A DNA stretch of 64,000 nt from an uncultured Gemmatimonadota bacterium (GTDB taxonomy: Bacteria > Gemmatimonadota > Gemmatimonadetes > Longimicrobiales > Longimicrobiaceae). A program made the position numbers and the translations under genes. The stretch is taken from NCBI GenBank assembly GCA_902805735.1, contig CADCTW010000230.1, forward strand, positions 1 through 64,000, in the 5' to 3' direction. A model generated the notes under the pieces. It was not told where the DNA came from and made no database searches. It saw nothing but the letters and a program-made list of their open reading frames with translations. Positions 35,938-52,509 of the stretch are shown here, piece after piece (the stretch's first letter is position 1; every line of letters begins with the position of its first letter).

Positions 35938-37181
35938 CGTACGACCTTTTCTCGTCCGCGGGAGCCAGCGAGCGTCCCCCGCGGGGGATGAACGAGGCGC
36001 GCAACGAGGACGCCGCCCGCGCCGTCGCCGCCCGCCAGGCGGATGCCGGCTTCCCCGCGGCGCGCCCGGCGCGCGCCGAGTGGACGGTGGCCGACGTCAA
36101 CGCCGCCGCGCGCGAGCTGATCGAGGGCGTGCTCCCGCCCATGTGGGTGGCGGGGGAGGTGAGCAACTTCACGAAGGCGCGCTCGGGGCACTGCTACTTC
36201 ACCCTGCGCGGCCCCGACGCCCAGCTCCGCTGCGTGATGTGGCGCGACGAGGCCCGCCGCCTCCCCACCGCCCCCGCCGAGGGGATGGAGGTGCGCGCGC
36301 TGGGGCGGGTGACGCTGTACGAGCTGCGCGGCGAGTTCCAGCTGGTGGTGGCGGAGCTGGAGGGGCGCGGCGAGGGGCTGTGGAAGCTGGCCTTCGACCA
36401 GCTCCGCGCGCGGCTGGACGGGGAAGGGCTCACCTCCCCGCTGCGCAAGCGGCCCGTCCCGGCGCTCCCGGCGTGCGTGGGCGTGGTGACTTCGCCGTCC
36501 GGCGCGGCGCTGCACGACGTGATCTCGGTGATCCGCCGCCGCGCGCCGTGGACGCGCATCGTGCTCTCGGCCGCGCGCGTGCAGGGCGAGGGCGCCGCGG
36601 GCGAGGTGGCGCGCGCCATCCGCCGCATCGGCGCGGCGGGGGTGGCGGACGTGCTGATCGTCGGCCGGGGCGGTGGCTCGGTGGAGGACCTGTGGGCCTT
36701 CAACGACGAGGCGGTGGCCCGCGCCATCGCCGAGTCGCCCGTGCCCGTGATCTCCGCCGTGGGGCACGAGACGGACTTCACCATCGCGGACCTGGTGGCG
36801 GACCTGCGCGCCCCCACCCCATCCGCCGCCGCGGAGGCCGCGGTGCCGGATGGCGCGCAGCTCCGCCGGGCCGCCGCCCAGCTCGGCGGCCGGCTGGCCC
36901 GCTGCACCCGCGAGCGCCTGGCGGACGCGCGCGAGCGTGCCCTGGAGGCGCGCCTGGACCTGCACGACGCGGGGAGCACGCTGCTGGCCGCCCGCCGCGA
37001 GCAGGCTGCGGCGCTGGCGGGGAAGCTGCACGCCCTGTCGCCGCTGGCCGTGCTGGCGCGCGGGTTCGCCGTCCCCGTGTCGCCGCAGGGGCGGGTGCTG
37101 CGCACCGCCGCCGATTTCGCGCCGGGCGAGGAGTTCCGGCTGCGGCTGGCGGAGGGCTCCGTGCGAGCCCGGGCGGAGTAA
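35934..37181 (+). CDS. xseA: Exodeoxyribonuclease VII large subunit
   Basis: 415 residues. The OB-fold N-domain begins at about residue 50 (EWTVADVNAAARELIEGVLP, WVAGEVSNFTKARSGHCYF). Catalytic region with VGVVTSPSGAALHDVISVI, VGRGGGSVEDLWAFNDE and SAVGHETDFTIADLVAD. The coiled-coil region before the end is shorter than in E. coli. Degrades single-stranded DNA with XseB. xseB is not adjacent but 16 kb away at 53175, with an opposite-strand island between them. Confidence 0.94.
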   Translation: MTYDLFSSAGASERPPRGMNEARNEDAARAVAARQADAGFPAARPARAEWTVADVNAAARELIEGVLPPMWVAGEVSNFTKARSGHCYFTLRGPDAQLRCVMWRDEARRLPTAPAEGMEVRALGRVTLYELRGEFQLVVAELEGRGEGLWKLAFDQLRARLDGEGLTSPLRKRPVPALPACVGVVTSPSGAALHDVISVIRRRAPWTRIVLSAARVQGEGAAGEVARAIRRIGAAGVADVLIVGRGGGSVEDLWAFNDEAVARAIAESPVPVISAVGHETDFTIADLVADLRAPTPSAAAEAAVPDGAQLRRAAAQLGGRLARCTRERLADARERALEARLDLHDAGSTLLAARREQAAALAGKLHALSPLAVLARGFAVPVSPQGRVLRTAADFAPGEEFRLRLAEGSVRARAE

Positions 37182-37222: not shown

Positions 37223-38536
37223 TTAGAGCTTGATGATGTAGGCGAGCACGAAGAAGGGGGGGCGGTTCTCGTGGGAGTTGCCGCCGCCGGTGTGGTTGGT
37301 CTGGAAGCCGTGCGAGTGCTCGCCCGAGTAGTCCGTGTTCACGCGGCCGCGCCAGTGCATCTCGTTGGGGTCCCCATTGCTGCCGCCCCCCCATCCCATG
37401 TCCACCGTCGTGTCGCCCCAGATCCAGCGCTGGCGCTTGGACAGCCCGTCCGCGTCGGTCCCCTCGATCCAGTGGTAGTGGCTGCCGCCGACGTCCGTCT
37501 GCCCGCCGTGCGAGTGCGAGGGCATCTCCCCTTCGTTGAGCTGCACGCGCGAGGCGCCGCCCGTGAGGCGCGGGGCATGGTACTCCGGCTCACGCGGGTC
37601 CAGCCCCACCACAAAGCGCCCGCGCAGGTCCGGCCGCCCTTCGCCGCCGTCGCAGAGCGCCCAGCCGCGCGGCACGCCGTCCGCGGCGCCGGACCACAGG
37701 ATGATCCCGCCCACGGGCATCACCGCGCCCGTCTGGTCCTCGATGCGCCCCGCCACCTGCAGGCTGCCGTCCAGCCGCGCCGGTCCCCTCACCGTCAGGT
37801 CGCGCACCACCAGGCTCGGATCGCTCACCACCACCCAGGCGGTGAAGTGCTCCTCCACCGTGAACCCGTGCGCCTGCACCTCCACCACGAGCGTGAAGAG
37901 GGTGGTCTCGGCGAGCGGGGGCGAGGTCCAGCGGCGCACGTGCGTGACGTCCTCGTCGCGGTCGTCCCAGTAGATGCGGTAGGTGGCGGCGGGGCTCCCC
38001 GCCCAGGTGAGGTCCACCGTCTCCTGGTTGTGGATGCGCAGGCGGGTCGGCTGCAGGTCGCCGGCGAAGAAGCCCTCGGGGAACTTGGAGACGAGCAGCG
38101 TGCCGAAGCGCGTCCGCGGGCTCTCGTCCGAGTCGGTGGCGACCTCCTCCACTTCCAGCGGAGTGGTGCCCACGTACGTGCTCACGTGGATCCCCGCGAT
38201 CACCAGGGCGAGCCCCTGCGTGGTGATCGTCCCCATCTCCGCCGTGTCCGGCCGCGCGGCGAAGCGCCCGCTGCCCAGCGGCGAGAGCATCCACCCCTTG
38301 GTCTGCGCCTCCGCGCGGAAGGAGTCCACCTCGGTGAGGTCCGCAGCGTCGGGTTCCTTGGGGTCGCCGACGCGCACGGAGAGGATGATTTCCCGCACGG
38401 TGACCGGCACCGCTCCGGCGTTGGTGACCACCACCGTGACCGCCGCGTTCTCCGCGTGCGCGTGCAGGGGGAGGGGAGAGGTGGAAAGGTCGTAGCTGAG
38501 GAGGGTGCCCTCCTGGTTGCCGCGCGTAAGTCGCAT
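37223..38536 (-). CDS. Tail-fibre-like protein with phage tail-collar domain
   Basis: 437 residues. The N-terminal half (about 270 residues) is a beta-rich module shared with the next gene upstream: TSPLPLHAHAENAAV, SVRVGDPKEPDAADLTEVD, KFPEGFFAGDL, WTSPPLAETTLF and VSDPSLVVRDLTV. The C-terminal half is a tail-collar domain: GGIILWSGAADGVPRGWALC, RPDLRGRFVVGLD and several HSH/HSHG motifs, ending in PPFFVLAYIIKL. Such domains form trimeric receptor-binding fibres. ATG 38536 (MRLTRGNQEG) is chosen by match to the paralogue's start. Last gene of the island operon. Confidence 0.78.
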   Translation of the reverse strand: MRLTRGNQEGTLLSYDLSTSPLPLHAHAENAAVTVVVTNAGAVPVTVREIILSVRVGDPKEPDAADLTEVDSFRAEAQTKGWMLSPLGSGRFAARPDTAEMGTITTQGLALVIAGIHVSTYVGTTPLEVEEVATDSDESPRTRFGTLLVSKFPEGFFAGDLQPTRLRIHNQETVDLTWAGSPAATYRIYWDDRDEDVTHVRRWTSPPLAETTLFTLVVEVQAHGFTVEEHFTAWVVVSDPSLVVRDLTVRGPARLDGSLQVAGRIEDQTGAVMPVGGIILWSGAADGVPRGWALCDGGEGRPDLRGRFVVGLDPREPEYHAPRLTGGASRVQLNEGEMPSHSHGGQTDVGGSHYHWIEGTDADGLSKRQRWIWGDTTVDMGWGGGSNGDPNEMHWRGRVNTDYSGEHSHGFQTNHTGGGNSHENRPPFFVLAYIIKL

Positions 38537-38563
38537 TTCGAGGATGAGTTGTAGGTGTGGATC

Positions 38564-38735
38564 GGGCCCCCTCCCCCCGTCCCCCTCCCCCGCAAACAGC
38601 GCGGGAGAGGGGGCGATTTCCACGCACGGGTGGGGTGAGAACGGGCCTGCCGCGCGCGTGGGCCCTGAGTCCCCTCTCCCATGCGGGTACGGGGAGAGGG
38701 TGGCAGCTGCGAGCTGCCGGGGGAGGGCGTCCCTC
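38564..38735. repeat. Degenerate inverted-repeat (MITE-like) element between the two tail-fibre-like genes
   Basis: The right end (TCCCCTCTCCCATGCGGGTA, then CGGGGAGAGGGTGGCAGCTG and GAGCTGCCGGGGGAGGGCG) matches the right end of the elements at 25773 and 61165. The left end (CCCCCTCCCCCGCAAACAGC, then GCGGGAGAGGGGG) keeps only the hairpin. It begins just behind the stop codon of the 38736-40193 gene, the same placement as the other copies. Confidence 0.7.
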
Positions 38736-40193
38736 TTACGGCCGCCTGGCGAGGGCGGGGGGGAGCACGGCCGGGCGCCCGCTCTCCAGCGACTCGCGGA
38801 CGGGGGCGATCACCAGCCAGTCGAACCCGGTGTCGCCGGTGCCGCCGGCGCACTCGCCCACCGTGAAGCCGCTCCCGTCACGCTCGCCCGCGTAGAGGCC
38901 GTTGCAGGGGCCGGCGGCGGTCAGGAGGACGCGGTAGCCGGCTTCGTGGGCCATCAGGTCCGCAGTGGGGCCGTCGAAGTCCACGCGCCCCACGCCGCCG
39001 CGAAGCCGGCCGCGCCCGCTCAGGTGCACCTCCGCCGCGGGCGAGAGGGGGGAGGCCATCACGCGCGGGCCCGCCTGCGTGGGAAGCTGCGTCAGCACGG
39101 AGGCGCCCGCCTCGGTGTGGATGGGCCCGGTGCTGTAGAGCATGGTCGCCCCCTCCGGCCCGATCAGGTACAGGCCCATGCAGTGGTCGATGGCCGTATC
39201 GGCGTAATTGGCCATGACCATGACGCAGTCTGAACGCGTCACTTCCAGCGTGGCGTTCCTCCCCACCGTCAGCGCAAGGTCGCGGACGTTGGCGGTGAGG
39301 CTCCGCCCGATCTGCGCGGCGCGGAGCTGCGCCGTTCCGTTCGAGGTGAGGTCGCCGGCGGTGAGCGTGTCCAGCGTGGCGCCCCCGGTCACCCGCGCGC
39401 CGCCGTGGAGCGTGGCGAGGTTCTGCACCGTGAGGTCGTGGGCGACCACGCTGGGGTTGGAGACCACCACCGTGACGCTGAACGACTCCGTCACCGTCTC
39501 GCCGTCCTGCTGGGCCCGCACGTCCAGGATGAAGGTGGTGTCGTGCGCCAGGGGCGGGCTCGTCCAGGCGCGCACCTCCGTCACGTCCTCCGACTCGTGG
39601 TCCCAGCGCAGGGTGTAGGCGGCGGCGGCGGCGCCGGTCCAGGTGAGCCGCACCGTGCCGCCGTAATCCACCGACGGAGCGCCCGCCACCAGGTCGCCCG
39701 CGAAGAAGCCGTAGGGGAACTTGGGGAGCAGCACCGTGGCGGCGCGGTCGGCGTACTCGGTTCCGTCCGCGGACGAGTGCTCGGCGATGTCGAGCGGCGA
39801 GGTGCCCACCCGTGTGCTCACCCGGATGTTGCCGATGGTGAAGCTGAGTCCCCCCGTGGTGAACTCGGCCGCCTGCGGGGTGCCAGGCGTGGCCACGAAC
39901 CGCCCGTTCCCCGCGTACGCGATGGTCCAGTCGCCCCCGGCGGCCTCCACGGTGAACCCGCCGTCCACCTCGGTGAGGTCGATGGACTCGGGCTCGTCCG
40001 GATCTCCCACCGTGATCCCGAGGGTGATGCGGTTGGCCCAGACCGGGGCGTCCGAGTTGTTCCCCACCACCACCGTGATCGCGCCCAGCGACGGCGGAGC
40101 GGCTCCCGCCGGGCTCGCCTGCAGCGGGAGCGGAGAGGTGGTGGCGGCGTAGGTGAGCAGCGTGTCGGACGAGGAGAGCCGGGTCAGGTGCAT
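38736..40193 (-). CDS. Tail-fibre-like protein, paralogue with different C-terminus
   Basis: 485 residues. The N-terminal module is clearly related to the neighbouring gene: TSPLPLQASPAGAAPP, GITVGDPDEPESIDLTEVDG, KFPYGFFAGDLVAG, WTSPPLAHDTTFILDV and VSNPSVVAHDLTVQNL. The C-terminal half is a different beta-rich domain with SLTANVRDLALTVGRNATLE and no collar or S74 signature. ATG 40193 has AAGG upstream. A modular fibre with an exchanged tip is the natural reading; the receptor is unknown. Confidence 0.72.
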   Translation of the reverse strand: MHLTRLSSSDTLLTYAATTSPLPLQASPAGAAPPSLGAITVVVGNNSDAPVWANRITLGITVGDPDEPESIDLTEVDGGFTVEAAGGDWTIAYAGNGRFVATPGTPQAAEFTTGGLSFTIGNIRVSTRVGTSPLDIAEHSSADGTEYADRAATVLLPKFPYGFFAGDLVAGAPSVDYGGTVRLTWTGAAAAAYTLRWDHESEDVTEVRAWTSPPLAHDTTFILDVRAQQDGETVTESFSVTVVVSNPSVVAHDLTVQNLATLHGGARVTGGATLDTLTAGDLTSNGTAQLRAAQIGRSLTANVRDLALTVGRNATLEVTRSDCVMVMANYADTAIDHCMGLYLIGPEGATMLYSTGPIHTEAGASVLTQLPTQAGPRVMASPLSPAAEVHLSGRGRLRGGVGRVDFDGPTADLMAHEAGYRVLLTAAGPCNGLYAGERDGSGFTVGECAGGTGDTGFDWLVIAPVRESLESGRPAVLPPALARRP

Positions 40194-40276
40194 GGGGGCC
40201 TTGGGATCAGAGTGCGGCGGCGGGCACTCGCCGCCCACGGGGAAGCAGTAGGGGCTCACCACCACGAACCGCAAAG

Positions 40277-40343
40277 ATCTCACACGGAGGCACGCAGACA
40301 CGGAGAGAAGCTCTTCTCCGTGTCTCTGTGCCTCTGTGTGAGT
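40277..40343. repeat. Dispersed CACAGAGG-type repeat as long hairpin
   Basis: TCTCACACGGAGGCACGCAG, ACACGGAGAGAAG, CTC, then TTCTCCGTGTCTCTGTGCCT and CTGTGTGAG. The two halves are near-perfect complements, giving an arm of about 30 bp. It lies between the 1228-aa gene and the tail-fibre-like genes (40194-40362 spacer) and could terminate or uncouple transcription within the island. Confidence 0.85.
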
Positions 40344-40362
40344 CCCGCGGTTCGAACACCCA

Positions 40363-43300
40363 TCAGTGCTGCGGCTCCTTGGGAAGGAAGCGCAGGTGGC
40401 CCTCGCGGAGGGAGGCGGGGAGCTCGCTCAGCTCCGCGCGGTCGCCCGCCGCGGCCAGGGGGCGGATCAGCGGGCCGGAGCCCAGCAGCTCCACCCACTC
40501 CCACACCCCGTTGCGCTCGGCGGGGAGGGGGTAGGGGAGGGGGCGCGGCGTGCGGTCGGGGTCCGTGCCCTCGGCCACCGGCGCGCCGGGAAGGGGGCGC
40601 AGCACCGCCAGGAGCGGCCCCGTGCGGAAGGTCGCCTGCATGGCCGCCATGGGCCCCTCCACGTAGCGCGCGGGGAGGCCGATCTCGCGCTGCGGGAGGA
40701 TGCCGCAGCGGGCGCTCACGGTGCCGCGCGGGTCCAGCACCAGGGTGACGCCCACCGGCGCGGCGCCGGGCGCGGTGTTGAGGGGCACGCGCAGGCGGTT
40801 GCCCTCGCCGATGGGAGCCAGGTAGCCCCCCGGCGCCACCCCGGGGAGGGGGTGGGTGGCGTTGAAGCGGCCGTAGTCGTCGCCCGTGAAGTACCCCATC
40901 AGCCCGTCGCGGCGCGACTCCACGTCGCCCAGCTCCACGTCGAACGAGTAGCCGGCGAAGGGCGCCTTCACCGGCGCGAAGGTGAAGGGCCAGCTCGGGT
41001 CGGCCAGGGGCTCGCCCATCAGCTCCAGCCCCACCGCGGCCCGCACCACGGCCAGGGGGCGGCCGATCAGCGCGTTGAGGAGGAGGTCCGAGCGGTCGCC
41101 CAGCGGGTCCACCGACCAGGTGGTCTCGTCGATGGTCTCCAGGAAGTCCGAGAGCGCGGCGGCGCCGGCCTTCACCAGCCCGGCCACCAGGTCGCCCAGG
41201 TGGGGCTCCAGCGAGCGGAGCGCCTCCACCGTGCCGGGGGCCGGCATCCCCGGCGCGGGGTCCCACACGGGGACCAGGGTGCCGTCCGCCCGGGCGGCGG
41301 GGCGCAGCTCGCCCAGGATGGCGCCGTCCGCGTCGTACACCGCCAGCGCGCGGTCCAGGTGGTTGGGGAGGAGCCACCCGCACAGGGGCGACCCGCCGGC
41401 CGCCAGCCGCAGCGAGCCCCCGGAGTGTGGGGCCGTCCACTCGAAGGTGAGGCGGGCGGGCTGCAGCAGGCGCGGGCCGAGCTGCACGGCCGTCCCCACC
41501 GTGCCGTCCACCACCGGGCGGTCGGGGACCAGCGCGGGCGCCCGCAGGGGCACGAAGTGGCTCGGGTCCGCGGGCGTCACCTCCAGCGTCTGTCCGAAGC
41601 GGTCCACCACCGCCACGCGGGTGAAGACGAGCTGCCCCGCCCGCATCCCCTCGAACGACGACGACGGCGCGTCGAAGCGCTTGCCCGTGGCGGCGATGGA
41701 CTGCGGCACCGAGTGGTCGCCCGCCCCCACCAGCTCGCCCAGGGTGCGCCCCAGCGCCCCCACCGGTGTGGTGCGGTCCGGCGCCAGGTTGCTGCGCGGG
41801 TCGCGCAGGGCGATCTGCGCGTGCAGCCCGCTCAGCGTCTGCGAAAGGAGGTCCCACCCGTCCTTGCGCTCGATCAGCTCGCTGAGCGCCGCCAGCTCCG
41901 CGCTCTCCGGGTGCTCGTCCGTGTACTGCTTGATGCGCGCGCGCAGCTGGAACTCCGGGCGCGGCGTGAGCACCGAACGCCCCGAGAGGACGCGCGGCTG
42001 CGGCGCCGGCACGTCGTTCCCCGCGCGCCGGTACTCCCGGCCGTCGTACGCCCAGTACCCGCTGCCGTCCGCCTGGAAGGGGATGGGATACCAGCTCACC
42101 TGCCATTCCAGGAAGAGGGGGAGCCAGGGCGGGCTCCACAGCCCCAGCTCCAGGTCGGGGAGGGTGCCGGTGACATCGCCGTGCTGGACGATGGCGCGCT
42201 CGGCTTCCGCGATGGTCCCCGCGTCGTCCCGGCCCCACGCCGCCCGCGAGAGGGCCGCCGCGTTCCCCGGGTCCAGCAGGTACGCTTCGCGAAGGGCCGC
42301 CTCCACCGCGTCCGGCAGCCCGGCGAGCTGCACCGCGGGCGCCGCGCTCCCCGCGTGGTCCAGCGTGAGCCGCGACGCCCCGCCCAGGGGGAGCGTCAGG
42401 GAGACGGAGGCGACCACCTGGTCCGGCGTGCGGCAGGCGCGGGTGTCGCGCGGGCGCAGGGTGCCGCTCTGGCGCGCGCCCGCCACCAGGATCACGGGAT
42501 CCGCGGGGGCCCAGAAACGCGGCTCGGCGCTGGCCTTCAGCACCCGCCCGGCGGAGAGCGCGGGGGGCGCCGCCACCCCGGGCACCGTGCCGCCCGTGGA
42601 GAGCGCGTCCACCCGCGCGCGCGCCTCGCCCGCTTCCGCGGCGGCCGCCAGCACGCGCGCGGGGAGGGCGTCGGGCGCGTCGCCCAGCGCCGCCTGGAAC
42701 TGCGCCGGCGTGGTGCGCCAGGGGTAGCGGGACGGGTTCCCGCCCGAGAAGGCGCGGGCCGCGCGGGCCTTCCACGCCAGCTCGAAGAGCTCCCGCTGCA
42801 GCCCCGCCAGGTGGAGGTTGGCGGCGTCCAGCCGCGCCTGCGCCGCGTTGAGGGGGTCCAGGAGCTGCGCCTCGGCCGCGAGCTGCGCGGGGGAGGGCGG
42901 CGGCGGCGGCGCGGGCGGGATCTCGCCCGGGGCGGAGGGGAGCGGGGGATCGGCGGATGAGACCTCCCAGCGCGTTCCCGCGGGGCTGGAGCCGAACCAC
43001 GCGTCGCGGATGGCGCGGTCCAGCTGCGCGTCGCCCCCCGGCTGGTCCAGCAGGGGGAGGAGGCCGTACTGGAAGGCTTCCAGGAGCCGGGCGGTGTGCT
43101 CCGGCTCCCTGCCGTCCTCGCGCACCTGCGCCTCCACCAGCGCGGTGAGGGCGTCGATGGAGGTGTTCCCCACGGACAGGCGCACGGCGCCGGGGCCGGG
43201 AAGGTCGGGCTCCAGGTCGGCGCCGGGCTGCCACTTCACGCCCGGCACGGTGCCGTGGCAGAGGATGCGGCGCGGGAGGGCGCCGCCCGCGAGCGTCCAG

Positions 43301-44049
43301 CCCAGCTCCGCCAGCCGCGCGTGCAGCGCCTCGGGGCCCCTGGAGGCGTCCCAGCCGGCGAGGGGATCGTCGCCCGGCTGCGCGTACCAGCCGGCGACGA
43401 AGTAGCTGAGCGTCCCCGCCGGGACGCCGCGCAGCGCCAGCTCGTCGTGGATGGAGAGGACGTTCTGGTTGTGGGGCTGGAAGGCGCTGAACGACAGGTT
43501 GCCGGGCGCCACCGCCGTCAGCCACCCCCCCGGGTGCCCCGGCTCCCGGTACCCCTCGGGCCCCAGCGGCACCTTGCGCCCCAGCCGCACGGGCACCGGC
43601 TCCGCGCCGGTGGAGCGCGGGTCCAGGAAGCGGGCGCTGCGCCCCGGGTCGTCTTCGGTGGCGAAGTGGCCGGGGACGGGGTCCGGCGTGCGGGCGGGCC
43701 ACACGTAGTCGCTTTCCACCACCCACGCCGCGGCGTGGCGGGCGTCCGGCTCGCCGTGGTACCGCACCACGAGCCAGCGGTTGGGGATGGGGGGAAACTT
43801 CACGGCGCCCGTGCCGGGGTCCTGCCGCCCCCGGCGCAGCCCGTCGGGAAGCGTCCACGCCAGGTACACGCCCTGGTTCTCCGGCCTCTGCGTGAAGGTG
43901 TCGTCCACGTACTCGAAGGCGTTCCCTTCGGGCGCGGCGGCGGCGGCCAGGTTCTCGTACACCATCGGCCAGCGCCGGAAGTTGCGCGACCGGCCGGTGA
44001 CGACCATCGCGGTGACGTCTACCGGTACCAGCAGGGTGGGATCGCTCAT
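40363..44049 (-). CDS. Large hypothetical protein (1228 aa) of the DUF6603 island
   Basis: A 1228-residue protein with no signal peptide or membrane helix. The N-terminal 120 residues carry GVYLAWTLPDGLRRG and FPPIPNRWLVVRYHGEPD, a motif recalled from other very large uncharacterised bacterial proteins. A Pro-rich linker lies near residues 370-385 (PPAPPPPPSP), then a helical segment, then mostly beta sequence to the end. No enzyme motif found. ATG 44049 is followed closely by MVYENLAAAAAPEG. It is 19 nt downstream of the 773-aa gene and must be in the same operon. Structural component or assembly scaffold is inference only. Confidence 0.72.
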   Translation of the reverse strand: MSDPTLLVPVDVTAMVVTGRSRNFRRWPMVYENLAAAAAPEGNAFEYVDDTFTQRPENQGVYLAWTLPDGLRRGRQDPGTGAVKFPPIPNRWLVVRYHGEPDARHAAAWVVESDYVWPARTPDPVPGHFATEDDPGRSARFLDPRSTGAEPVPVRLGRKVPLGPEGYREPGHPGGWLTAVAPGNLSFSAFQPHNQNVLSIHDELALRGVPAGTLSYFVAGWYAQPGDDPLAGWDASRGPEALHARLAELGWTLAGGALPRRILCHGTVPGVKWQPGADLEPDLPGPGAVRLSVGNTSIDALTALVEAQVREDGREPEHTARLLEAFQYGLLPLLDQPGGDAQLDRAIRDAWFGSSPAGTRWEVSSADPPLPSAPGEIPPAPPPPPSPAQLAAEAQLLDPLNAAQARLDAANLHLAGLQRELFELAWKARAARAFSGGNPSRYPWRTTPAQFQAALGDAPDALPARVLAAAAEAGEARARVDALSTGGTVPGVAAPPALSAGRVLKASAEPRFWAPADPVILVAGARQSGTLRPRDTRACRTPDQVVASVSLTLPLGGASRLTLDHAGSAAPAVQLAGLPDAVEAALREAYLLDPGNAAALSRAAWGRDDAGTIAEAERAIVQHGDVTGTLPDLELGLWSPPWLPLFLEWQVSWYPIPFQADGSGYWAYDGREYRRAGNDVPAPQPRVLSGRSVLTPRPEFQLRARIKQYTDEHPESAELAALSELIERKDGWDLLSQTLSGLHAQIALRDPRSNLAPDRTTPVGALGRTLGELVGAGDHSVPQSIAATGKRFDAPSSSFEGMRAGQLVFTRVAVVDRFGQTLEVTPADPSHFVPLRAPALVPDRPVVDGTVGTAVQLGPRLLQPARLTFEWTAPHSGGSLRLAAGGSPLCGWLLPNHLDRALAVYDADGAILGELRPAARADGTLVPVWDPAPGMPAPGTVEALRSLEPHLGDLVAGLVKAGAAALSDFLETIDETTWSVDPLGDRSDLLLNALIGRPLAVVRAAVGLELMGEPLADPSWPFTFAPVKAPFAGYSFDVELGDVESRRDGLMGYFTGDDYGRFNATHPLPGVAPGGYLAPIGEGNRLRVPLNTAPGAAPVGVTLVLDPRGTVSARCGILPQREIGLPARYVEGPMAAMQATFRTGPLLAVLRPLPGAPVAEGTDPDRTPRPLPYPLPAERNGVWEWVELLGSGPLIRPLAAAGDRAELSELPASLREGHLRFLPKEPQH

Positions 44050-44068
44050 GTCAGGCGGCGGTGGGGGA

Positions 44069-46390
44069 TCACGTCTGGGGCGGGAAGCTGAGCCGGGCGG
44101 GCGCCCTCACCATCTGCACGGCGAGCTCGGCGGGGGTCAGCAGGGCGGGCGCCGGGGCGGGGCGGCTGCCGGCCACGCCGCTCGCCAGCGACGCCACCAG
44201 GCCGGTGCCGTCCGCCGCGACCAGGTTGAGGACGCGCCCTTCGCGCAGCGCGGAGGTGCCCGTCACCTGCACGGTGGCGTTGAGGGGATGCCCCACGGCG
44301 CCCGTCACCGCGCGCAGCTCCACCGCCCCCGCTTCGTCCACCCCGAAGCGCAGCCCCTCCTGCGGCTCGGTGATGTCCACCCGGTCGGGGACGCCCGCCC
44401 ACAGGCAGAAGAGCACGCTGCCGGAAAGGCGCTCCATGCGCAGGACGGGGAGCAGGGTGTCGCCGGAGGTGGCCCGCACCGAGAGCGCGGGCCACCCGCT
44501 CACCATCTCGGAGCGCAGCAGCATCCCCGACGCCACGGCGGGGAGGGCGGCGGGGAGCGACGCGGCCATGACCCCCGGGTGCACGGGGACGGCGGCGCGC
44601 AGGGCGGCCGCCCGCTCCCCCGCCGCGGCGCGGAAGCGGTCGTAGAGCGCGTCCAGCATCAGCCGGTCGCGCCCGTTGTGCGAGCCCACGCTCAGCGCCC
44701 CGTCCACCGCCGCCTCCACCCAGCTCTGGTCCAGGTAGAAGAAGCGGAGCGACTCCGCGGGCAGCATGCGCGCGTCCGGCACCAGGTGGGCGAAGGGGAC
44801 GCCTTCCAGCAGCGAAAGCCGCCCCAGCCACGACGCCAGCGGCGCCAGGTCCGCCTCCGCCTCCTCGCGCAGGATCGCCTGCACCTCGTCGCGGGCCAGG
44901 AAGTCGGCGATCACCTGCGCCGGGGTGGCCGCGGGCGGGTCGGGAACCACGGCCGCGCGCGGGCCGTCCGGTTTCGCGCCGGGCGCCGGAGCGGCGGGGG
45001 GCGCGGACGCCGCGGCTGCCACCTGCCCGGTGATCCCGCCCAGCAGCTCCGTCATGCGTGCGCGGAACGGGTCCCCCTGCAGCAGCTCCGCGAGGGTATC
45101 GGGCGTGTCCAGGTGCACGCTGTGCAGGCGGGCCAGGAGGCGGTCCAGCAGGCGCCGTCCGCGCCGGTGGAGGTTGAGGAGGCGCAGGCAGAAGTCGCCG
45201 TCGCCCAGCGCCAGGGCGCGCCCCACCGTCCAGGCCGCCGAAAGGGAGTGGTCGAAGGTGCGCGTCTCGTCATCCCACGCGGCCGCGGCGGAGGCGCTGC
45301 CGAAGGGGGACTGCTTGGGGACTCGCGTCGTGATGACGGGGGACAGGGGGCCACGGTACCAGGCGAAGCTGCGGTCGCCCGTGCGGGCCTGGTAGTCCAG
45401 CGGCACGAAGCCCTGCCGCAGCCGCCGCTCGGCCGAGCGCACGGCCAGGGGGCGGGTGTCGCCCGCCACGGCCGGGGGCGCGGCCAGGCGCAGCATCATG
45501 GCCTCGCGGTCCGCCGCGCCCGCCGCGGCCAGCCCGGTGGCGAGCGCCTGGAAGGTGGCGCCGTGCTCGGCCAGCGTCTCGAACTTCCACCCGAAGAGGG
45601 AGACCAGCCGCACCGCGCCCGGGGTGCCGTCCGCGCGGCGGGGGAGGGTGGCACCGTCGGCCAGCAGGGGCTCGACGCCGTCCAGCGACACCAGGTGCAC
45701 CACGGTGGTGAGCGACGGGGCGCCCACCGGCGGCTCGGAGGGGAGGCGGTTGGCGATGGCGACCGAGAACCACCCGGGGTCGCGCATCCCCAGCGCCTCG
45801 CGGTCGCCCGGGTTCACCTGGCGGCAGTGGGCCAGCCAGGGGAGCTCGGCGCGGCGCGGCATCACCCGCGCGAACACGTCGGAGGGAACCTCGATCCACC
45901 GGCACTGCAGCGCCCGCTCCGCCTCCGTGACGCCGGCCGGGGCGGGGGGCGTGACCCCGGCCGCGGGCACCAGCATGTCCGCCACGGTGCCCGCGTGCGC
46001 GTAGAGCCCGCCTGGCCCCGGCTCCGGCCCCAGCTCGCCGGGCTCGAACACCAGCAGCGCCATCCACGGAGCCTCGCGCGGGGCGCCGCCGGCCAGCGCG
46101 CGCTCCCAGGGAAGGGTGCGCTTGTTGAGCACCAGGTGGGGGAGGATCTCCGCGTAGCGCCCCGTGGTCTCCGCCACCGGGTACTGCGCGTGGATCTCCG
46201 CCGGGTCCAGCGCGAAGCGCGGCCCCCGCACCGAGAACGCCTGCGCGCGGTCCGGGATGGGCGTGGTGGCGGCGCTCACCGTCTGCTGCAGGGTGAGCCG
46301 GTACTCCGCGTCCGCCAGGGCAGGGAGATAGTGGTCGAAGAGCTGGAGGTCGCCCAGCGGGAGCACGGCCGTCTCGGGGTTGGCGCTCAT
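44069..46390 (-). CDS. Large hypothetical protein (773 aa) of the DUF6603 island
   Basis: 773 residues starting MSANPETAVLPLGDLQLFDH. Mixed alpha/beta sequence with an Ala/Pro linker (SAPPAAPAPGAKPDGPRA) near residue 460 splitting it into two parts. PWMALLVFEPGELG and SFAWYRGPLSPVITTRVPKQ are the most ordered-looking segments. No signal peptide, membrane helix or known catalytic motif. ATG 46390 overlaps the stop of the DUF6603 gene (ATGA), so the two proteins are made together, probably in fixed ratio. Unknown function. Confidence 0.72.
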   Translation of the reverse strand: MSANPETAVLPLGDLQLFDHYLPALADAEYRLTLQQTVSAATTPIPDRAQAFSVRGPRFALDPAEIHAQYPVAETTGRYAEILPHLVLNKRTLPWERALAGGAPREAPWMALLVFEPGELGPEPGPGGLYAHAGTVADMLVPAAGVTPPAPAGVTEAERALQCRWIEVPSDVFARVMPRRAELPWLAHCRQVNPGDREALGMRDPGWFSVAIANRLPSEPPVGAPSLTTVVHLVSLDGVEPLLADGATLPRRADGTPGAVRLVSLFGWKFETLAEHGATFQALATGLAAAGAADREAMMLRLAAPPAVAGDTRPLAVRSAERRLRQGFVPLDYQARTGDRSFAWYRGPLSPVITTRVPKQSPFGSASAAAAWDDETRTFDHSLSAAWTVGRALALGDGDFCLRLLNLHRRGRRLLDRLLARLHSVHLDTPDTLAELLQGDPFRARMTELLGGITGQVAAAASAPPAAPAPGAKPDGPRAAVVPDPPAATPAQVIADFLARDEVQAILREEAEADLAPLASWLGRLSLLEGVPFAHLVPDARMLPAESLRFFYLDQSWVEAAVDGALSVGSHNGRDRLMLDALYDRFRAAAGERAAALRAAVPVHPGVMAASLPAALPAVASGMLLRSEMVSGWPALSVRATSGDTLLPVLRMERLSGSVLFCLWAGVPDRVDITEPQEGLRFGVDEAGAVELRAVTGAVGHPLNATVQVTGTSALREGRVLNLVAADGTGLVASLASGVAGSRPAPAPALLTPAELAVQMVRAPARLSFPPQT

Positions 46391-49300
46391 GGTGCGGATG
46401 CCGGGGAAGGAGTGGCCCGCAGGGGCGTGTCGGAGAAGATCTGTGCGGCGTCGCGAGCCACCCCGGCCAGCGACCCCGCCATGGCGGGCGCCAGCCCCAG
46501 CGCCTCCAGCGCCGCGAAGACCTCCGCGCGCGCCCCGTTCGCCTCCGCGCCGGCCGCGCCCGCGGCGATCGCCGCGACGGTGCCGGCGTCGGGGACCGCG
46601 GCCACGCCGCCCCGCTGGGCGGGGGAAAACGCGAGCTGCGTGGTGGTGGAGACGGGCTCGTAGCTGAGGTCGCGCGCCACGTCCACCGGGCCCGGGGTGG
46701 AGCCGGCGCGCGCCTTCGGGGGGCGCACGCGGAAGCCGGTGAGCTGCGCGGGGAGCATCGCCGCCTGCGCCCTGGGCCGCTCGTCGCCCAGGGGCGTTCC
46801 CCACATGGCCTCAGGATGGCGCTGCGCCTCGGATTCCACCGACCATCCCTCACCCACCAGGTCCACCACCGCGCCGTCGCGGGTGACGGTCAGGGTCTTG
46901 GGGGTGGTGACGCCCGCCGTGTTCATGGGGCGGATGGCGAGGGGGCTCCCCGCCGAGTGGCGCGCCGAGGTTCCGCCGGGCATCGCCAGGCGCAGCTCGC
47001 TGGCCGGAATGGCGGAGCGGGTGCTGAAGGACAGCTCGTCCGGCCGCGCCACCCACTCCCCGGCGCCCGTCTTCTGGATCCCGTCCGCCGCCAGGGTGAG
47101 GAGGGCGTCATCCGGCGGCAGGAGCTCGCGGAACCCTTTCCAATCCACCGATTTGGCCCCCGACCCCGCGGCGGAGCCGAAGGGGATGGTAAACGAGATG
47201 ACGTGCCAGTCCACGCGCACCTCGCCCCCCGTGGGCGGGCCCCAGATGTGGAGGTCCGCGCCGATCTCCACCGACACGGTGACCGTGGTGAGCCACAGGT
47301 CCAGCCGGTACGAGGCGCCCACGCTCACCCCGATCCACGCGTCGAAGCTGAAGGGGTGCCAGTGCGCCAGGAAGTCCGCGCCGGCGCGGAACCAGGCGCG
47401 CAGGTCGCCGCTGTGGAAGGTGGCCTCCAGCGACACCCCGGCCATGATCGCGGAGGGGGTGAGGGCGAAGTAGGCGCCGCCCTTGAGCGTCACCTGGCTG
47501 GAGACCTGCCAGTTGAAGCCCAGCCGCTCCAGCGCCGGGTAGTGCGCCGGCCGCGTGAACGACGGGTGGTAGCCGCCCACCGAGAGAACGAAGTCGCCCG
47601 CGTGCTCCCCCGCGTACCAGCAGAAGAAGGCGAAGCCGCCCGTGAGCCGGCAGCTGGGGTGCAGCAGGTACGAGCTGCGGCTGAGCACCGCGCTCACCCC
47701 CAGGAAGCCCTCCATGGGTTTGAACACGGCGGCGAGCTGCATCTCCACCCGCGCGAACACCACCGGGCTGTTGGGCGGCAGCACGACGGACGAGATCCCC
47801 AGCAGCGCCAGCGACACGTCGCGCTGCCCCAGGTTGGCCACCGCCAGCGCGCGGGTGTTCACCAGCTTGTAGGAGGTGAACTGCAGCCCCGCCGCCACCC
47901 AGAGCTGCCCCGGCTCGGCGCTCACCCACGCGGGGCCGGGGCGCGTGGTGCTGGTGCCCTGCAGCACCCGCAGCACCTCCAGCGGCCCCGCCCCCGTGCC
48001 CCCCGCCGCCGCCGGGTCGCTGAGCCCGGCCACCAGGGGGAAGTCCTGCACCTCGTCCGGCCCCGGGATGCGCAGGTGCGAGTTGATCCCCAGCCCGCCG
48101 GCCAGCCCCATCACGAAGAAGGCGGGGTCGCCGCCCAGCGGCGCGTCCAGCACCCCGAACACGAACATGGAGGGGACTCCGGCCGCGCTCCCGAACGCCC
48201 CCACGGCGCCGATCCCGTACTCGCCCATCTTGAAGCGCGCCAGCCCCGCGTACTCCCAGTCCATCCCCGCGGGTGGCGGGTTCATCCTCATCAGCGCGCC
48301 CGAGACGAGGAGCGGGTCGCGGTTCACCTCCAGCCCCAGCCCGTCCAGCCCCAGCCCGACGTTCAGCGGGGGCTTGATGGCGGACGACACCTGCAGCCCG
48401 AACAGGGAGAAGCTCACCCCGGCGATCCCCAGCCCGCCGTCCAGCAGCACCGTGACCCGGCCGGTTTTGTAACGGAAGCCGATGCGCTGAAGGGAGAGCG
48501 GACCGATGCTCTTCTGCAGGTTGAGCCAGGTGGTGCCGTCCTGCGGGGCCACGGCCTGCGCCGGCGCAGGCCCCGTCTGCGCCGTGGCGCCGGTGAGCGG
48601 CACCTGCGTGCCGGACGAAGCGGTGGCCGGGAGCCGCGCGTTCCCCGGTGCCGGGGACGCCGCCGCGGTGCCCAGCGTAAGCGTGTGCACCGCCTCTCCC
48701 AGCCGCGCCGTCACCGAGAGCGTGGGCCCCGCCCCCAGCCCCGTCGCCGGGACGCGGGGGAGTCCGGCGGGGACCAGCGCGTCCAGGGTGCCCACGTCGC
48801 CCGGCGCCACCGGCGCGGAGGCCAGCCAGAGCGAGATGTCGTCCAGCGAGAACGCCAGCGACGGGGGGATGGCCGGCCCCACCACCGGGAGCTCGCGCAG
48901 CGACTTCTTGGGCGCCACCTCCAGCGCGAACAGGTAGCGCGCCTTGGGCCCCGACGCGTCGGCGATGAACACGGCGCCGCCGTAGTGCAGCGAGTGGGCG
49001 GTCAGCGCCAGCCGCTTGTTGCTGAAGTCGTAGGTGAAGGAGGCCTCGTCCAGCGCCAGGTCCAGCCCCTCCGGGATCTCCGGCATCTCGAAGCCGAACA
49101 GGTCGGCCAGCGAGCCGAAGCCCAGCGTGGTCTTCTTCCCCGTGGCGTCCGCCACCGCCTTCCACTCACCACGGAAGGTGGTGGTCGCGGACGAGCCCTG
49201 GGTGCTAGCCGTGGGGGCGTCGTCGCCGGAGTTGCCGACCGCGGGCGCATCGCCGCCGGAGGCGCCGGCCGTGGGGGCATCGCCGCCGGAGGTGCCGGCC

Positions 49301-51189
49301 GTGGGGGCGTCGCCGATGGAGGTCCCGGCCGTGAGCGCGGCGTCGCCGGCCGCGGACGCCTTTGCAAAGGTGAGGGTGAACGACTGCCCCTCCACCACCA
49401 TTGAGCCGGAGACCAGGAGGTCGAAGCCCGGCCGCGTGGCGTCGGTGGACGGCTTCACGTCCAGGGTGAAGCCCAGCTCCACCGGGTGGTCGGCCAGGGT
49501 GAACCCGCCGCGGCAGCCGAAGTGGATGGCGCGGGTGCCGGTCTCCACCCGCACGTCGAAGTCGCTGAGGTAGAAGCTGCGCACCGCCTCCGGCACCGGC
49601 ACGCCACACGTGTCCGCCACCGTGTCCAGCAGCGTCCCCAGCGGGATGCGCTGGTCCGCCCCCGTCTTCCCCGTGAAGATCCACCCGCCCCCCGCCTTGG
49701 GGAGCTCGGCCGATACCCAGAGGTCCACCCCCGCCACCGTGAACGAGCCCGCGACCAGCACCTGCGGCGTGGTGGCGGGGTCGTTGGTGAGCTGCAGCCG
49801 GAGCCCGTTGATGACCCAGGTGAAGAGGCCGAAGTCCAGCGGCCAGTGCCCGGCCAGCTCCACCTGCAGCGCGTAGGTGCGTCGCGTCAGGGTGAACTCG
49901 AAGTCGTCCACCAGCACCAGGGGCACGGTGATCCCCGGCCCCACGAAGTCTTGGAGGATGTCGCTGAGCCGCAGCGTGGTGCCGGCCTTGAGCCCCGCCT
50001 GCACCGTCCAGCTCCCCGAGTCGGCGCGCAGCTCCAGCACCCCCGCGGTGCCCATCTCCAGCTCGCCGCTCACCGTCATGCGCGGGGAGCGGCTGCCGAA
50101 CGGATCGCCCAGCGTGAAGAGCAGCTTCACGTTCTGCAGGGCGAAGACGCGGCCGGAGCCGGGCAGGGCGAAGAGCTTCCACTGGCCCACGCTCTCGATC
50201 CCCAGCCCCACCATGGCGATGCGGGGCGAACCGGCCAGGTTCATGTCCACGAACAGGTCGTTCAGCCGGATCACGTTCCCCAGGTCGAACCCCTCGTCCC
50301 GGGGCAGGTGGTCGGTGATCTTGACCTGCGACGCGAGCCCGGGGCCCAGCAGTTCCTGGATCTCGTCGAGCGCCGCGCTCACCGAGTCCGTGATGTCGGC
50401 CGAGAACCGCGCGCGCCCGGAGGTGCCCACCTCCGCGCGCAGGGGAAGGGAACGCGGCTTCCCCGCCGCGGTGAAGGGAATCTCCATCGCCAGCGCCAGG
50501 AAGGAGGTGGCGTCCCAGCGTCGGCGGGCCGAGTTGTAGGCGAGGCGCGACGCCACGGACACGCGCACGTCCGTGGCGGTGGCGATCCCCAGGTCCACAC
50601 GCGGCACCGCCGGGGCGGCGAGCACCACCCCGTTCAGCGCCGCCCCCCGCTTCGCCAGCGCCACGGTTCCGTCCAGCTCCAGCCGGGGGACGGAGAGCAG
50701 GTCGGCCAGCCCCGCGGTGGCCGCCGCCAGGTCCGCGCCGCCCCGCAGCGACAGCCCGGCGGGCCCGCCGTCCGGGTGCGAGCGGAGGGTGAGGGTGGGC
50801 GCGCCGTCCGCCGCGAAGGGGAGCGTGCCGGCCAGGGTGCCCGCCAGCGGCGGAAAGCCCGCGCCCATCCGCCACGCCGCGCCGGGGTGCCCGGTGAGCA
50901 CGAACCCCGCGGTCCCATCGTCGCGCAGGAGCACGCGCAGCTCGGTGCGCGTCCCGCGGAAGGGCAGGTCCACCCCGGTGCCGCTCACCACGATCACCGC
51001 CGAGCCGTCCGTGGGCTCCGTGAAGGGGCTCGCGTCCGGCGTCAGGGTGACGGCCGCGCCGGGGAGGGCGGCCTCCGCCACGGCGGTGGCGGCATCCGAT
51101 CCCAGCGAGGCCACCGGGAGCGAATAGCTGCCGTCCGCGCGCAGCCCGCCGCGCACGATGGTCCTGAGCTGGTCAGCGGTGATGGTCAC
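46387..51189 (-). CDS. Giant DUF6603-type protein (1600 aa)
   Basis: 1600 residues, almost entirely predicted beta. The C-terminal half (about 885-1365) has the features I associate with DUF6603: ARFKMGEYGIGAVGAFGSAA, FVFGVLDAPLGGDPAFFVMG, CRLTGGFAFFCWYAGEHAGD, VLSVGGYHPSFTRPAHYP, YFALTPSAIMAGVSLEATF and DLHIWGPPTGGEVRVDWHVI. The N-terminal half repeats shorter beta modules. A repetitive linker of ten-residue units lies at about 613-660. No signal peptide. The many amphipathic strands could form a long beta-solenoid or lipid-transfer-like groove, but this is speculation. GTG start at 51189, 27 nt after the metallo-beta-lactamase gene. Confidence 0.8.
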   Translation of the reverse strand: MTITADQLRTIVRGGLRADGSYSLPVASLGSDAATAVAEAALPGAAVTLTPDASPFTEPTDGSAVIVVSGTGVDLPFRGTRTELRVLLRDDGTAGFVLTGHPGAAWRMGAGFPPLAGTLAGTLPFAADGAPTLTLRSHPDGGPAGLSLRGGADLAAATAGLADLLSVPRLELDGTVALAKRGAALNGVVLAAPAVPRVDLGIATATDVRVSVASRLAYNSARRRWDATSFLALAMEIPFTAAGKPRSLPLRAEVGTSGRARFSADITDSVSAALDEIQELLGPGLASQVKITDHLPRDEGFDLGNVIRLNDLFVDMNLAGSPRIAMVGLGIESVGQWKLFALPGSGRVFALQNVKLLFTLGDPFGSRSPRMTVSGELEMGTAGVLELRADSGSWTVQAGLKAGTTLRLSDILQDFVGPGITVPLVLVDDFEFTLTRRTYALQVELAGHWPLDFGLFTWVINGLRLQLTNDPATTPQVLVAGSFTVAGVDLWVSAELPKAGGGWIFTGKTGADQRIPLGTLLDTVADTCGVPVPEAVRSFYLSDFDVRVETGTRAIHFGCRGGFTLADHPVELGFTLDVKPSTDATRPGFDLLVSGSMVVEGQSFTLTFAKASAAGDAALTAGTSIGDAPTAGTSGGDAPTAGASGGDAPAVGNSGDDAPTASTQGSSATTTFRGEWKAVADATGKKTTLGFGSLADLFGFEMPEIPEGLDLALDEASFTYDFSNKRLALTAHSLHYGGAVFIADASGPKARYLFALEVAPKKSLRELPVVGPAIPPSLAFSLDDISLWLASAPVAPGDVGTLDALVPAGLPRVPATGLGAGPTLSVTARLGEAVHTLTLGTAAASPAPGNARLPATASSGTQVPLTGATAQTGPAPAQAVAPQDGTTWLNLQKSIGPLSLQRIGFRYKTGRVTVLLDGGLGIAGVSFSLFGLQVSSAIKPPLNVGLGLDGLGLEVNRDPLLVSGALMRMNPPPAGMDWEYAGLARFKMGEYGIGAVGAFGSAAGVPSMFVFGVLDAPLGGDPAFFVMGLAGGLGINSHLRIPGPDEVQDFPLVAGLSDPAAAGGTGAGPLEVLRVLQGTSTTRPGPAWVSAEPGQLWVAAGLQFTSYKLVNTRALAVANLGQRDVSLALLGISSVVLPPNSPVVFARVEMQLAAVFKPMEGFLGVSAVLSRSSYLLHPSCRLTGGFAFFCWYAGEHAGDFVLSVGGYHPSFTRPAHYPALERLGFNWQVSSQVTLKGGAYFALTPSAIMAGVSLEATFHSGDLRAWFRAGADFLAHWHPFSFDAWIGVSVGASYRLDLWLTTVTVSVEIGADLHIWGPPTGGEVRVDWHVISFTIPFGSAAGSGAKSVDWKGFRELLPPDDALLTLAADGIQKTGAGEWVARPDELSFSTRSAIPASELRLAMPGGTSARHSAGSPLAIRPMNTAGVTTPKTLTVTRDGAVVDLVGEGWSVESEAQRHPEAMWGTPLGDERPRAQAAMLPAQLTGFRVRPPKARAGSTPGPVDVARDLSYEPVSTTTQLAFSPAQRGGVAAVPDAGTVAAIAAGAAGAEANGARAEVFAALEALGLAPAMAGSLAGVARDAAQIFSDTPLRATPSPASAP
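49206..49352 (-). repeat. Five 30-bp tandem repeats in the DUF6603 gene
   Basis: Units begin at 49211, 49241, 49271, 49301 and 49331, exactly 30 nt apart, encoding variations of GDAPTAGTSG. In frame, so copy number can change without breaking the protein. It forms a flexible Gly/Ala/Thr linker between the two halves. Confidence 0.85.
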
Positions 51190-51216
51190 GGCGGCGCGGG
51201 AGAAGGGGGAGGGAGG

Positions 51217-52509
51217 TCACTCGCCGGTGAGCGCGTAGGTGAGGTAGTCCACCTGCCCGGTGAGCCCGGTAAGGTGGATGTCCTTGGTGGAGTTGCCGCG
51301 GTAGCACAGGTACCCCTCCGCCGGGCTGAGCGCCACGAACACGTCCGTCACGTCCTCCTGGTCCGCGCGGATGTAGTGCGGCCCCTCGCTCACCGGCTCG
51401 TCGTCCACCTTGGACTGCTTCCGCTCCAGCTTCACGCCGTCCCTGCGCCACTGGTCCAGCTGGGCGAGGGCCTGGTTGGTGGTTCCCTTCTGGAAGCGGG
51501 GGTCCCGCTGCCACGCGTCTACCCTGTGGCGGGTGACGTCCTGCACCGTGGCCATGTAGCGGTCGATGACGTCCTTCCCCGGCAGGTGGTGCGAGTACTC
51601 GATCAGGTCCACGCTCACCGCCACGCTCTTGGGCCTGGTGGCGTTCACGAAGTCGGGGCTGGACGATGTGCGGGAGCTCCCGTGGTGGGGCGCCTGCAGG
51701 GTCACCAGGCCGCTGATCAGCGCGCCGCGGTTCGCCACCAGGAACCGCTCGGTGGAGACGGTTGCGTCGCCGCACAGCAGCGCCTTCTCGGTGCCGAGCT
51801 GCAGCAGCGTCACCAGGCTTCCCGCGTTCCTCCCCCCCGCGTCCGACTGGTCGTCCGTCGCCTTGGCGACGCCCCCCGCGATGATCTTGACGCTCCAGGC
51901 CCGCTTCTTGGACGCGGTGGTCCCCCACGCCACCTCCAGCACTCCCGTGTTGAGCGGGGTGTCGGCGTACGGCTTGTCCGTGGCGCCCCAGTTCCACGTC
52001 CGCACGCCGGAGGCGGTCGCGTTGAGGAGCACCAGGTGGAGCCGCTTCACCCCCAGCCGGTTGTAGATGGTGTCGCTGGCGCCGGACTTGGCGTACGCCG
52101 CCAGGGGCGAGTTGACGTCCTTGGAGCCGAAGCTGAAGTAGACGTCGTTCACCGGGATGGTGGCGGTGGTCTGCGCCTCGACTTTGACGCCGTCCAGGGT
52201 GGTGGCCTCGATCTTCGCGCCCAGGAGCATGCCGGCGATCTGGTTGCAGTGGTCCAGGTCCGGATGCGTGAGGATCAGGGCGTCCAGGCCGCCGCGCTTC
52301 GCGACGCCGTCGTCCGAGCGCAGCATCATGTGCGCGCGCAGCCACGCGGTGTCGCTCAACCCGCCCGTGGAGCCGCAGTCCACCAGGATGCGCTTGCCGT
52401 CCGGGCAGGAGATCAGCACGCAGTCGCCCTGGCCCATGAAGAGGAAGGTGATGCGGATCTCCTCGGCCGGGTCCGGCTTGTCCTCGGTCACGTCCATCAT
52501 CTCGGACAT
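51217..52509 (-). CDS. ComEC/Rec2-like metallo-beta-lactamase-fold hydrolase
   Basis: 430 residues. FLFMGQGDCVLISCPDGKRI then LVDCGS, the HxDxDH motif at residues 82-87 (THPDLDHCNQI), CGDATVS, and the late LQAPHHGSSRTSS: the set of metal ligands seen in the ComEC C-terminal domain and stand-alone relatives. Likely a metal-dependent phosphodiesterase/nuclease, or a regulator of a nucleotide or polymer. No signal peptide. ATG 52509 has AGGAG 7-8 nt upstream, the best ribosome-binding site in the island. First gene of the operon. Confidence 0.8.
   Translation of the reverse strand: MSEMMDVTEDKPDPAEEIRITFLFMGQGDCVLISCPDGKRILVDCGSTGGLSDTAWLRAHMMLRSDDGVAKRGGLDALILTHPDLDHCNQIAGMLLGAKIEATTLDGVKVEAQTTATIPVNDVYFSFGSKDVNSPLAAYAKSGASDTIYNRLGVKRLHLVLLNATASGVRTWNWGATDKPYADTPLNTGVLEVAWGTTASKKRAWSVKIIAGGVAKATDDQSDAGGRNAGSLVTLLQLGTEKALLCGDATVSTERFLVANRGALISGLVTLQAPHHGSSRTSSSPDFVNATRPKSVAVSVDLIEYSHHLPGKDVIDRYMATVQDVTRHRVDAWQRDPRFQKGTTNQALAQLDQWRRDGVKLERKQSKVDDEPVSEGPHYIRADQEDVTDVFVALSPAEGYLCYRGNSTKDIHLTGLTGQVDYLTYALTGE

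Follow-up and report, generated by a model that had tools for sequence, protein, structure and literature searches.

What does the six-gene island on the minus strand at 37223-52509 of the window encode? The window is the 64,000-nucleotide (nt) stretch of contig CADCTW010000230.1 from an uncultured Gemmatimonadota bacterium, and an initial annotation of it had proposed that the island, centred on a protein with DUF6603 (PF20248), a Pfam domain without assigned function, might be an undescribed particle, polymer-handling machine or defence unit. Of these readings, the particle fits best. Three of the genes, encoding DUF6603, P773 and P1228, form a core that recurs across about a dozen phyla and archaea and is accompanied by two variable positions, one for an enzyme and one for fibre-like tips. 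We put at about an even chance the reading that the island represents a single instance of a modular effector complex, which would deliver its enzyme to other cells. The system is widespread in bacteria and archaea and apparently undescribed: a literature search, with bioRxiv and most subscription papers outside its reach, returned no paper naming DUF6603 or PF20248, and broader searches returned analogues at most.

Gene content of the island

The six genes run head to tail at the place and on the strand first proposed, and all show coding-like codon bias (GC content of 0.91-0.97 at third and 0.50-0.59 at second codon positions, whole open frames). After start correction, they are as follows.

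51217-52509, minus strand: variable enzyme position, a ComEC-type metallo-beta-lactamase (MBL)-fold hydrolase, predicted nuclease, 430 aa
46387-51189, minus strand: core 1, DUF6603 giant protein, 1600 aa, PF20248
44069-46390, minus strand: core 2, P773, 773 aa
40363-44049, minus strand: core 3, P1228, 1228 aa
38736-40265, minus strand: variable tip position, protein 1, fibre-like, with a conserved N-terminal domain (FIB) seen by blastp of FIB proteins
37223-38536, minus strand: variable tip position, protein 2, FIB domain and a tail-collar/Gp10-like C-terminus (PHROG 1800, PDB 6ov6)

Intergenic distances in transcription order are 27 (MBL to DUF6603), -4, 19, 97 and 199 nt; the fourth becomes ~170 nt with the likely start of fibre protein 1 at ~40193, judged by eye from relatives. 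The reported ATGA overlap of P773 with DUF6603 (4 nt) and the 19-nt gap from P773 to P1228 were thus recovered.

The 1600-aa protein was confirmed as a DUF6603 protein (E 1.9e-142, 475.8 bits against a cut-off of 27, residues 891-1364), and this is the sole Pfam family over cut-off among the five non-MBL island proteins. P773, P1228 and fibre protein 1 exceed no curated family cut-off in Pfam or NCBIfam and are unmatched in PHROGs and PADLOC at E<=1. The AlphaFold2 models of P773 (mean pLDDT 82.0, pTM 0.76) and of P1228 residues 1-1200 (mean pLDDT 82.9, pTM 0.84) are fairly confident predictions. The description of the large proteins as beta-rich stood in part: both models mix strands with helices, those of P1228 including two long ones (387-434 and 462-484) beside beta domains. 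Resemblance to ordinary enzymes, named beforehand as an argument against a system, was not seen for P773 or P1228: Pfam and PDB searches gave no enzyme match by sequence, P773 had no sequence relative in the PDB, and the fold search gave no significant PDB match for either model. P773 is encoded by one gene or, in many relatives, by two (N and C parts). A transmembrane-like hydrophobic stretch occurs in 33 of 64 DUF6603 proteins, which makes a membrane role possible. Three annotated plasmid records name the core products only "hypothetical protein" or "DUF6603 domain-containing protein".

Recurrence of the three-gene core

Recurrence in unrelated genomes had been set beforehand as the test of a system. 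A P1228 profile, built from the window protein and three relatives within its phylum, retrieved 140 relatives from genome contigs, and the counts below cover 80 of them (L and G numbers denote loci and genomes). We assign these loci to Actinomycetota, Pseudomonadota, Acidobacteriota, Myxococcota, Bacteroidota, Chlorobi, Chloroflexota, Bacillota, Nitrospirota, cyanobacteria, Spirochaetes, SAR324, Gemmatimonadetes and two archaeal lines. A six-frame hidden Markov model search located DUF6603, the P773 N-terminal part (P773N) and P1228 together in 72 of the 80 loci. The remaining eight all start at a contig end; <600 nt precede the P1228 open frame in seven of them, and in L089 the stretch is 3.8 kb. 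Because the core stands together in 72 of 80 loci drawn by P1228, its recurrence exceeds chance.

The genes are adjacent in the order DUF6603-P773-P1228 in 59 loci, interrupted by an insert in three, permuted in nine, on mixed strands in one and incomplete in eight. P1228 comes first in seven permuted loci, and P773-P1228 precede DUF6603 in two, as if co-transcription alone, and not gene order, mattered. The permuted loci are L047, L060, L076, L082-L084 and L103, together with L062 and L081; most of them have the order P1228, tip, MBL, DUF6603, P773.

The neighbours of DUF6603 were also tabulated from DUF6603 alone. With each count including the seed genome, chosen for having DUF6603, PF20248 was present in 9 of 298 genomes of the window's phylum (its own included) and, in the phyla of L036, L057, L064 and L103, in 11/346, 9/378, 9/235 and 3/194, respectively; in the phylum of L047 it was present in 5/251, four of these over cut-off. 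It was absent from all 14 control genomes. The sample comprised 35 loci from five phyla outside the 80 P1228 loci, after five already among the 80, one over-cut-off contig-end fragment and three matches below cut-off were left out. P773 or a counterpart was found in 34 of the 35 (37 of 38 if L121, L125 and L126, whose genomes were reached via P1228, are included), and the gene neighbours of DUF6603 are therefore not random. The first P773 profile matched 29 loci; the second, built from six type B proteins (see below), of which four came from the same sample and also match the first profile, added five. Nineteen loci carry P773 and P1228, and 15 carry P773 or a counterpart with no P1228 in the stretch examined, some of them interrupted by contig ends and two (L123, L124) with a type A P773. 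The only locus without P773, L116, lies on a 5.6-kb contig. Of the nine DUF6603 genomes in the window's phylum, five have P773 and P1228 (own included), three are type B and one gave a weak partial match. Equal gene lengths indicated by eye that L125 duplicates L028 and L146 duplicates L043.

Two further arrangements emerged. Type B loci (e.g., L111, L113, L118, L131, L132, L134, L135; G192, G080, G048) keep DUF6603, mostly of 970-1150 aa, and a P773N-like protein, followed, contig allowing, by other large partners of ~1240-1900 and 510-630 aa; PhoD, M64, S8 or trypsin-like enzymes lie upstream in several. In type A2 loci (L112, L129, L140-L144, G286, G159), DUF6603 proteins reach 3233-3493 aa, and the gene ahead of DUF6603, which overlaps it by 4 nt in seven of nine, encodes a conserved protein of ~200 aa.

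An exchangeable enzyme upstream of DUF6603

The window enzyme matches Lactamase_B (3e-9, Pfam) and TIGR00361 ComEC_Rec2 (2.8e-14, below the equivalog cut-off at 52.2 of 190 bits). It carries MGQGDC, THPDLDH, CGD and PHHGS, in line with the ComEC-type MBL signatures (MGQGDC, HxDxDH, GD, HHGS). Signatures and Lactamase_B match together identify it as a ComEC-type hydrolase, and the annotation of 51217-52509 as such was upheld. Similarity to defence MBLs was also detected, both in PADLOC (LmuA 2.2e-13, RTasMBL 1.1e-12) and in NCBIfam (6A-MBL, NF058524, 5.9e-11; Avs1a 6.3e-8).

A same-strand gene lying <=250 nt before DUF6603 was present in 34 of the 80 P1228 loci, a list that excludes the window, two loci of its phylum and L067, whose gene is on the opposite strand and >2 kb away. 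Twenty-five of the 34 genes are enzyme-like: MBL (7), EEP/DNase I-like (6), HNH-like (5), M91 (1) and a relative (1), trypsin (2), LCAT (1), DUF4135 (1) and RIP-like (1). The EEP/DNase I-like proteins, including L049 and L091, which were assigned by shared motifs, have WN, E and SDH invariant in 6/6 and contain GDFN. Exo_endo_phos was over the Pfam cut-off in L043, below it in L046 and not matched by L024 and L026 at 0.01; a joint profile retrieved DNase I chains at 1e-5, alongside designed-protein matches judged spurious. All five HNH-like proteins have an HHxxP motif (by eye), with no Pfam match for the two searched. M91, labelled "Effector protein" in Pfam, was over cut-off in L048, and its relative in L045 has HQLVH rather than HELVH. 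One trypsin was over cut-off and the other at 0.006, the LCAT-type lipase was marginally over, and the RIP-like protein was slightly below (20.4 of 21 bits, 4e-4).

A second survey, of 39 DUF6603 genes from the DUF6603 sample with the three added loci, gave MBL (6), PhoD-like (5, one below cut-off), M64 (2) and S8 (1) enzymes, repeated LCAT and EEP loci, the ~200-aa A2 family (7), and unknown, distant, opposite-strand or no gene (16). Type B adds PhoD, M64 and S8 to the enzyme classes. Enzymes are exchanged on closely related cores: the P1228 proteins of L044 and L069 are 72% identical, yet the upstream enzymes are HNH-like and RIP-like, respectively, and those of L048 and L049 are 63% identical, yet accompanied by M91 and EEP enzymes. 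Astacin/matrixin-like metalloprotease genes (cluster C3) lie downstream of the core or tip in L071, L078, L087 and L088.

An exchangeable tip

Fibre protein 2 belongs by profile to the tail collar fibre family PHROG 1800 (3.9e-32), and its collar stretch matches PDB 6ov6 (8.2e-14). The phage tail-collar domain claimed for it was clear in PHROGs and fell below the Pfam cut-offs (Collar 17.7 of 24 bits, Gp10_C 24.6 of 27); the protein shares with phage tail fibres a Collar/Gp10-type C-terminal domain. It shares the N-terminal FIB domain with fibre protein 1, whose C-terminal part resembles that of a Paenibacillus tuaregi fibre (L026).

FIB proteins occur in 24 of the 80 loci and the G286_4 family in 16; the latter looks by eye like a propeller, while Pfam found no propeller in the members from L101 and G159, and the member from G286 contains a GH-like stretch. 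When 22 of the 30 FIB proteins were compared, 21 N-terminal domains fell into a single blastp cluster and the C-terminal parts split into nine groups, which we read as a putative docking half joined to a variable half. Other tips are annotated beta-propellers or carry TSP3 repeats (L077), and that of L047 combines LamG with a sub-threshold Gp10_C (collar) match. The C-terminal ending ENRPPF..L.YI is common to the tips of the window, L047 and L103.

Insertion between xseA and xseB

The island lies between two genes named by eye:

35934-37181, plus strand: xseA, left edge
53175-53426, plus strand: xseB, right edge

This junction was compared in eight relatives. The island was laterally gained and splits xseA from xseB, since four of the eight (L147 and L148, which belong to the same genus, L153 and L154) have these genes overlapping by 4 nt; the genomes of L147 and L148 (G273 and G251) have no DUF6603. 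Elsewhere, L151 has a ~170-nt gap, L149 a small 126-aa gene, and L152 stops inside xseA. In L150 (2542-6218; genome G180, same genus), XPB/RAD25-like and Helicase_C_3 helicase genes occupy the junction. This junction has received genes on more than one occasion and is a possible insertion hotspot. No integrase was found among the island genes and no direct repeat >9 nt at the island edges. Farther right in the window, at 54758-55524, two small minus-strand genes between putative ispA and dxs are ~45-49% conserved in three relatives.

Copies are also carried by plasmids. In L104 (Streptomyces plasmid NZ_CP108443.1), CHAT and CATRA conflict genes lie ~5-9 kb from the copy and transposases are close by. 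In L106 (Paenibacillus polymyxa p-YT9A), genes for a small GH-E nuclease and for a baseplate-V-annotated protein lie within ~9 kb of the core. Further plasmid copies were seen in Embleya, S. clavuligerus and Paenibacillus.

A proposed modular effector-carrying particle and its alternatives

The proposal of a six-family system held for the three core families, and the enzyme and fibre genes proved to be exchangeable positions. We suggest that DUF6603, P773 and P1228 would form a conserved protein scaffold, on which one or two tips may dock via their N-terminal domain, leaving the exchangeable C-terminus (phage collar, lectin-like LamG or beta-propeller) to bind a target surface. The cargo would be a single exchangeable hydrolase, often of a toxin-like kind and usually encoded immediately upstream of DUF6603, in the window the predicted ComEC-type MBL nuclease. 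The particle would assemble in the cytoplasm, as the lack of signal peptides suggests, exit by lysis or another route, and carry its enzyme to or into another cell. The reported absence of export signals holds for the window proteins, the MBL included, as far as can be judged by eye and by hydropathy; a hydropathy rule classed as signal-like the N-termini of 2 of 39 upstream genes and of none of 30 FIB proteins, compared with 117 of 467 other genes. More broadly, and with slightly less assurance than for the island itself, these loci may define a new class of effector-delivery machine in bacteria and archaea, with the DUF6603-P773-P1228 scaffold, a plug-in enzyme and a targeting tip, with type B as a second architecture and with no detectable sequence or fold kinship to contractile or Tc systems.

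Several observations weigh against delivery. By the same rule, 37 of 87 P1228 and 3 of 64 DUF6603 proteins are signal-like, which for P1228 we read as a hydrophobic first strand. No lysis-family match was found for the six proteins in PHROGs, and no secretion route was identified. Nine of the 34 upstream genes could not be recognised as enzymes (L041, L042, L056, L062, where the gene is a FIB-labelled tip, L068, L070, L096, L098 and L103), 46 of the 80 loci offer no such gene, and the conserved ~200-aa protein of type A2 (7/39) is no obvious enzyme. Comparison of gene clusters revealed no conserved small immunity-candidate gene next to nuclease-type cargo. PhoD, M64, S8 and astacin occur as ordinary secreted hydrolases as well. 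One of the plasmid copies has CATRA and CHAT genes nearby, and MBL nucleases and trypsin-like proteases also act in intracellular phage defence (PMC12799240).

The last two points lead to the main rival, an intracellular conflict or anti-phage complex in which the giant core, with the tip, would detect an invader and then set free or switch on the enzyme within the cell, as MBL nucleases and trypsin-like proteases do in AVAST and Hachiman (PMC12799240). The resemblance of the window enzyme to LmuA, RTasMBL, 6A-MBL and Avs1a speaks for it, as do the occurrence of both MBL and trypsin at the enzyme position, the scarcity of signal peptides and the plasmid neighbourhood; beta-propellers can act as sensors. 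We nevertheless consider it unlikely: the core has no NTPase, STAND or other signalling domain (Pfam, E<=1), the five non-MBL proteins have no PADLOC match at E<=1, and the window island has neither a Pfam trypsin match nor a sensor ATPase. The tips, moreover, carry extracellular-type modules (collar, LamG, TSP3), and M91 and RIP-like cargo is atypical of phage defence. Distinctly less probable is an extracellular complex that displays hydrolases to surfaces or polymers for feeding and is no weapon. PhoD, M64, S8, LCAT and nucleases are nutrient-scavenging classes, four loci have astacin/M10 genes after the core or tip, and lectin-like and propeller domains occur among the tips; however, such enzymes are as a rule Sec/Tat exported, in contrast to the few signal-like N-termini here, RIP-like, M91 effector and HNH-like cargo has no evident feeding role, and unrelated enzymes on related cores resemble conflict.

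A divergent branch of phage-tail-derived machines, akin to extracellular contractile injection systems (eCIS), or of Tc-like machines would account for the collar tip and the fibre logic, for the lack of signal peptides, also a feature of eCIS, and for the baseplate-V-annotated gene ~9 kb from one plasmid copy. We hold this to be very improbable, as the core contains no Tc, Rhs or contractile-tail domain (Pfam, PHROGs, NCBIfam), P773 and P1228 gave no significant fold match in a search that barely tested their parts, and no P1228 relative was found in phages or viral contigs. Of the 75 PHROG families matched by 117 neighbour genes, the 25 listed include tail, fibre and collar families, and none of these 25 is named sheath, tube or baseplate.

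From this analysis DUF6603 gains a genomic context and two protein families without relatives a predicted role, and DUF6603 beside P773 can serve as a finder for new conflict or predation enzymes. Few systems with a fixed scaffold, swappable enzymes and swappable targeting tips are known, and every one of them has given rise to a research field. This one occurs in hosts that can be cultured, among them Herpetosiphon (H. aurantiacus, L047), Hyalangium and Streptomyces (a soil strain, L036).

Comparison with known systems

The initial annotation had recognised no known secretion, eCIS or toxin component family, and our searches agree. The window island has in common with the MBL nuclease-protease pairs of AVAST type 1, Hachiman and LmuA an MBL-fold ComEC-like hydrolase (PMC12799240), and differs in having neither sensor ATPase nor paired trypsin. 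Placement in AVAST type 1 failed on an Avs1a score far under cut-off (31.8 of 420 bits) and the absence of a Trypsin match in the six proteins, and placement in the 6A-MBL anti-phage system on that of NF058524 (42.1 of 220 bits).

Tc (ABC) toxin complexes combine giant proteins with an exchangeable enzyme, and in this the island is alike; no TcA, TcB or Rhs domain of Pfam was matched at E<=1 in the six proteins. The fibres of eCIS pair a conserved N-terminal anchor with C-terminal binders that vary, collar and beta-propeller among them (PMC12923769), and the island tips appear to be built alike. The six proteins, in contrast, gave no sheath, tube, baseplate, DUF4157 or Pvc16 match, which removed the island from the eCIS and contractile tails, and no match to the eCIS fibre anchor DUF6519 (eBAP5).

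Umbrella toxins of Streptomyces are particles that target through diversified lectins and carry polymorphic toxin domains (PMC13274773). Like them, the island would combine targeting modules with toxin-like ones; no family in common was noticed in the Pfam and NCBIfam searches, with Umb sequences not compared directly. In the island, the enzyme is a separate gene, export signals are rare, and the distribution covers many phyla including archaea. By analogy, a fixed scaffold with an exchangeable hydrolase and an exchangeable binder would follow the same logic as umbrella particles and eCIS.

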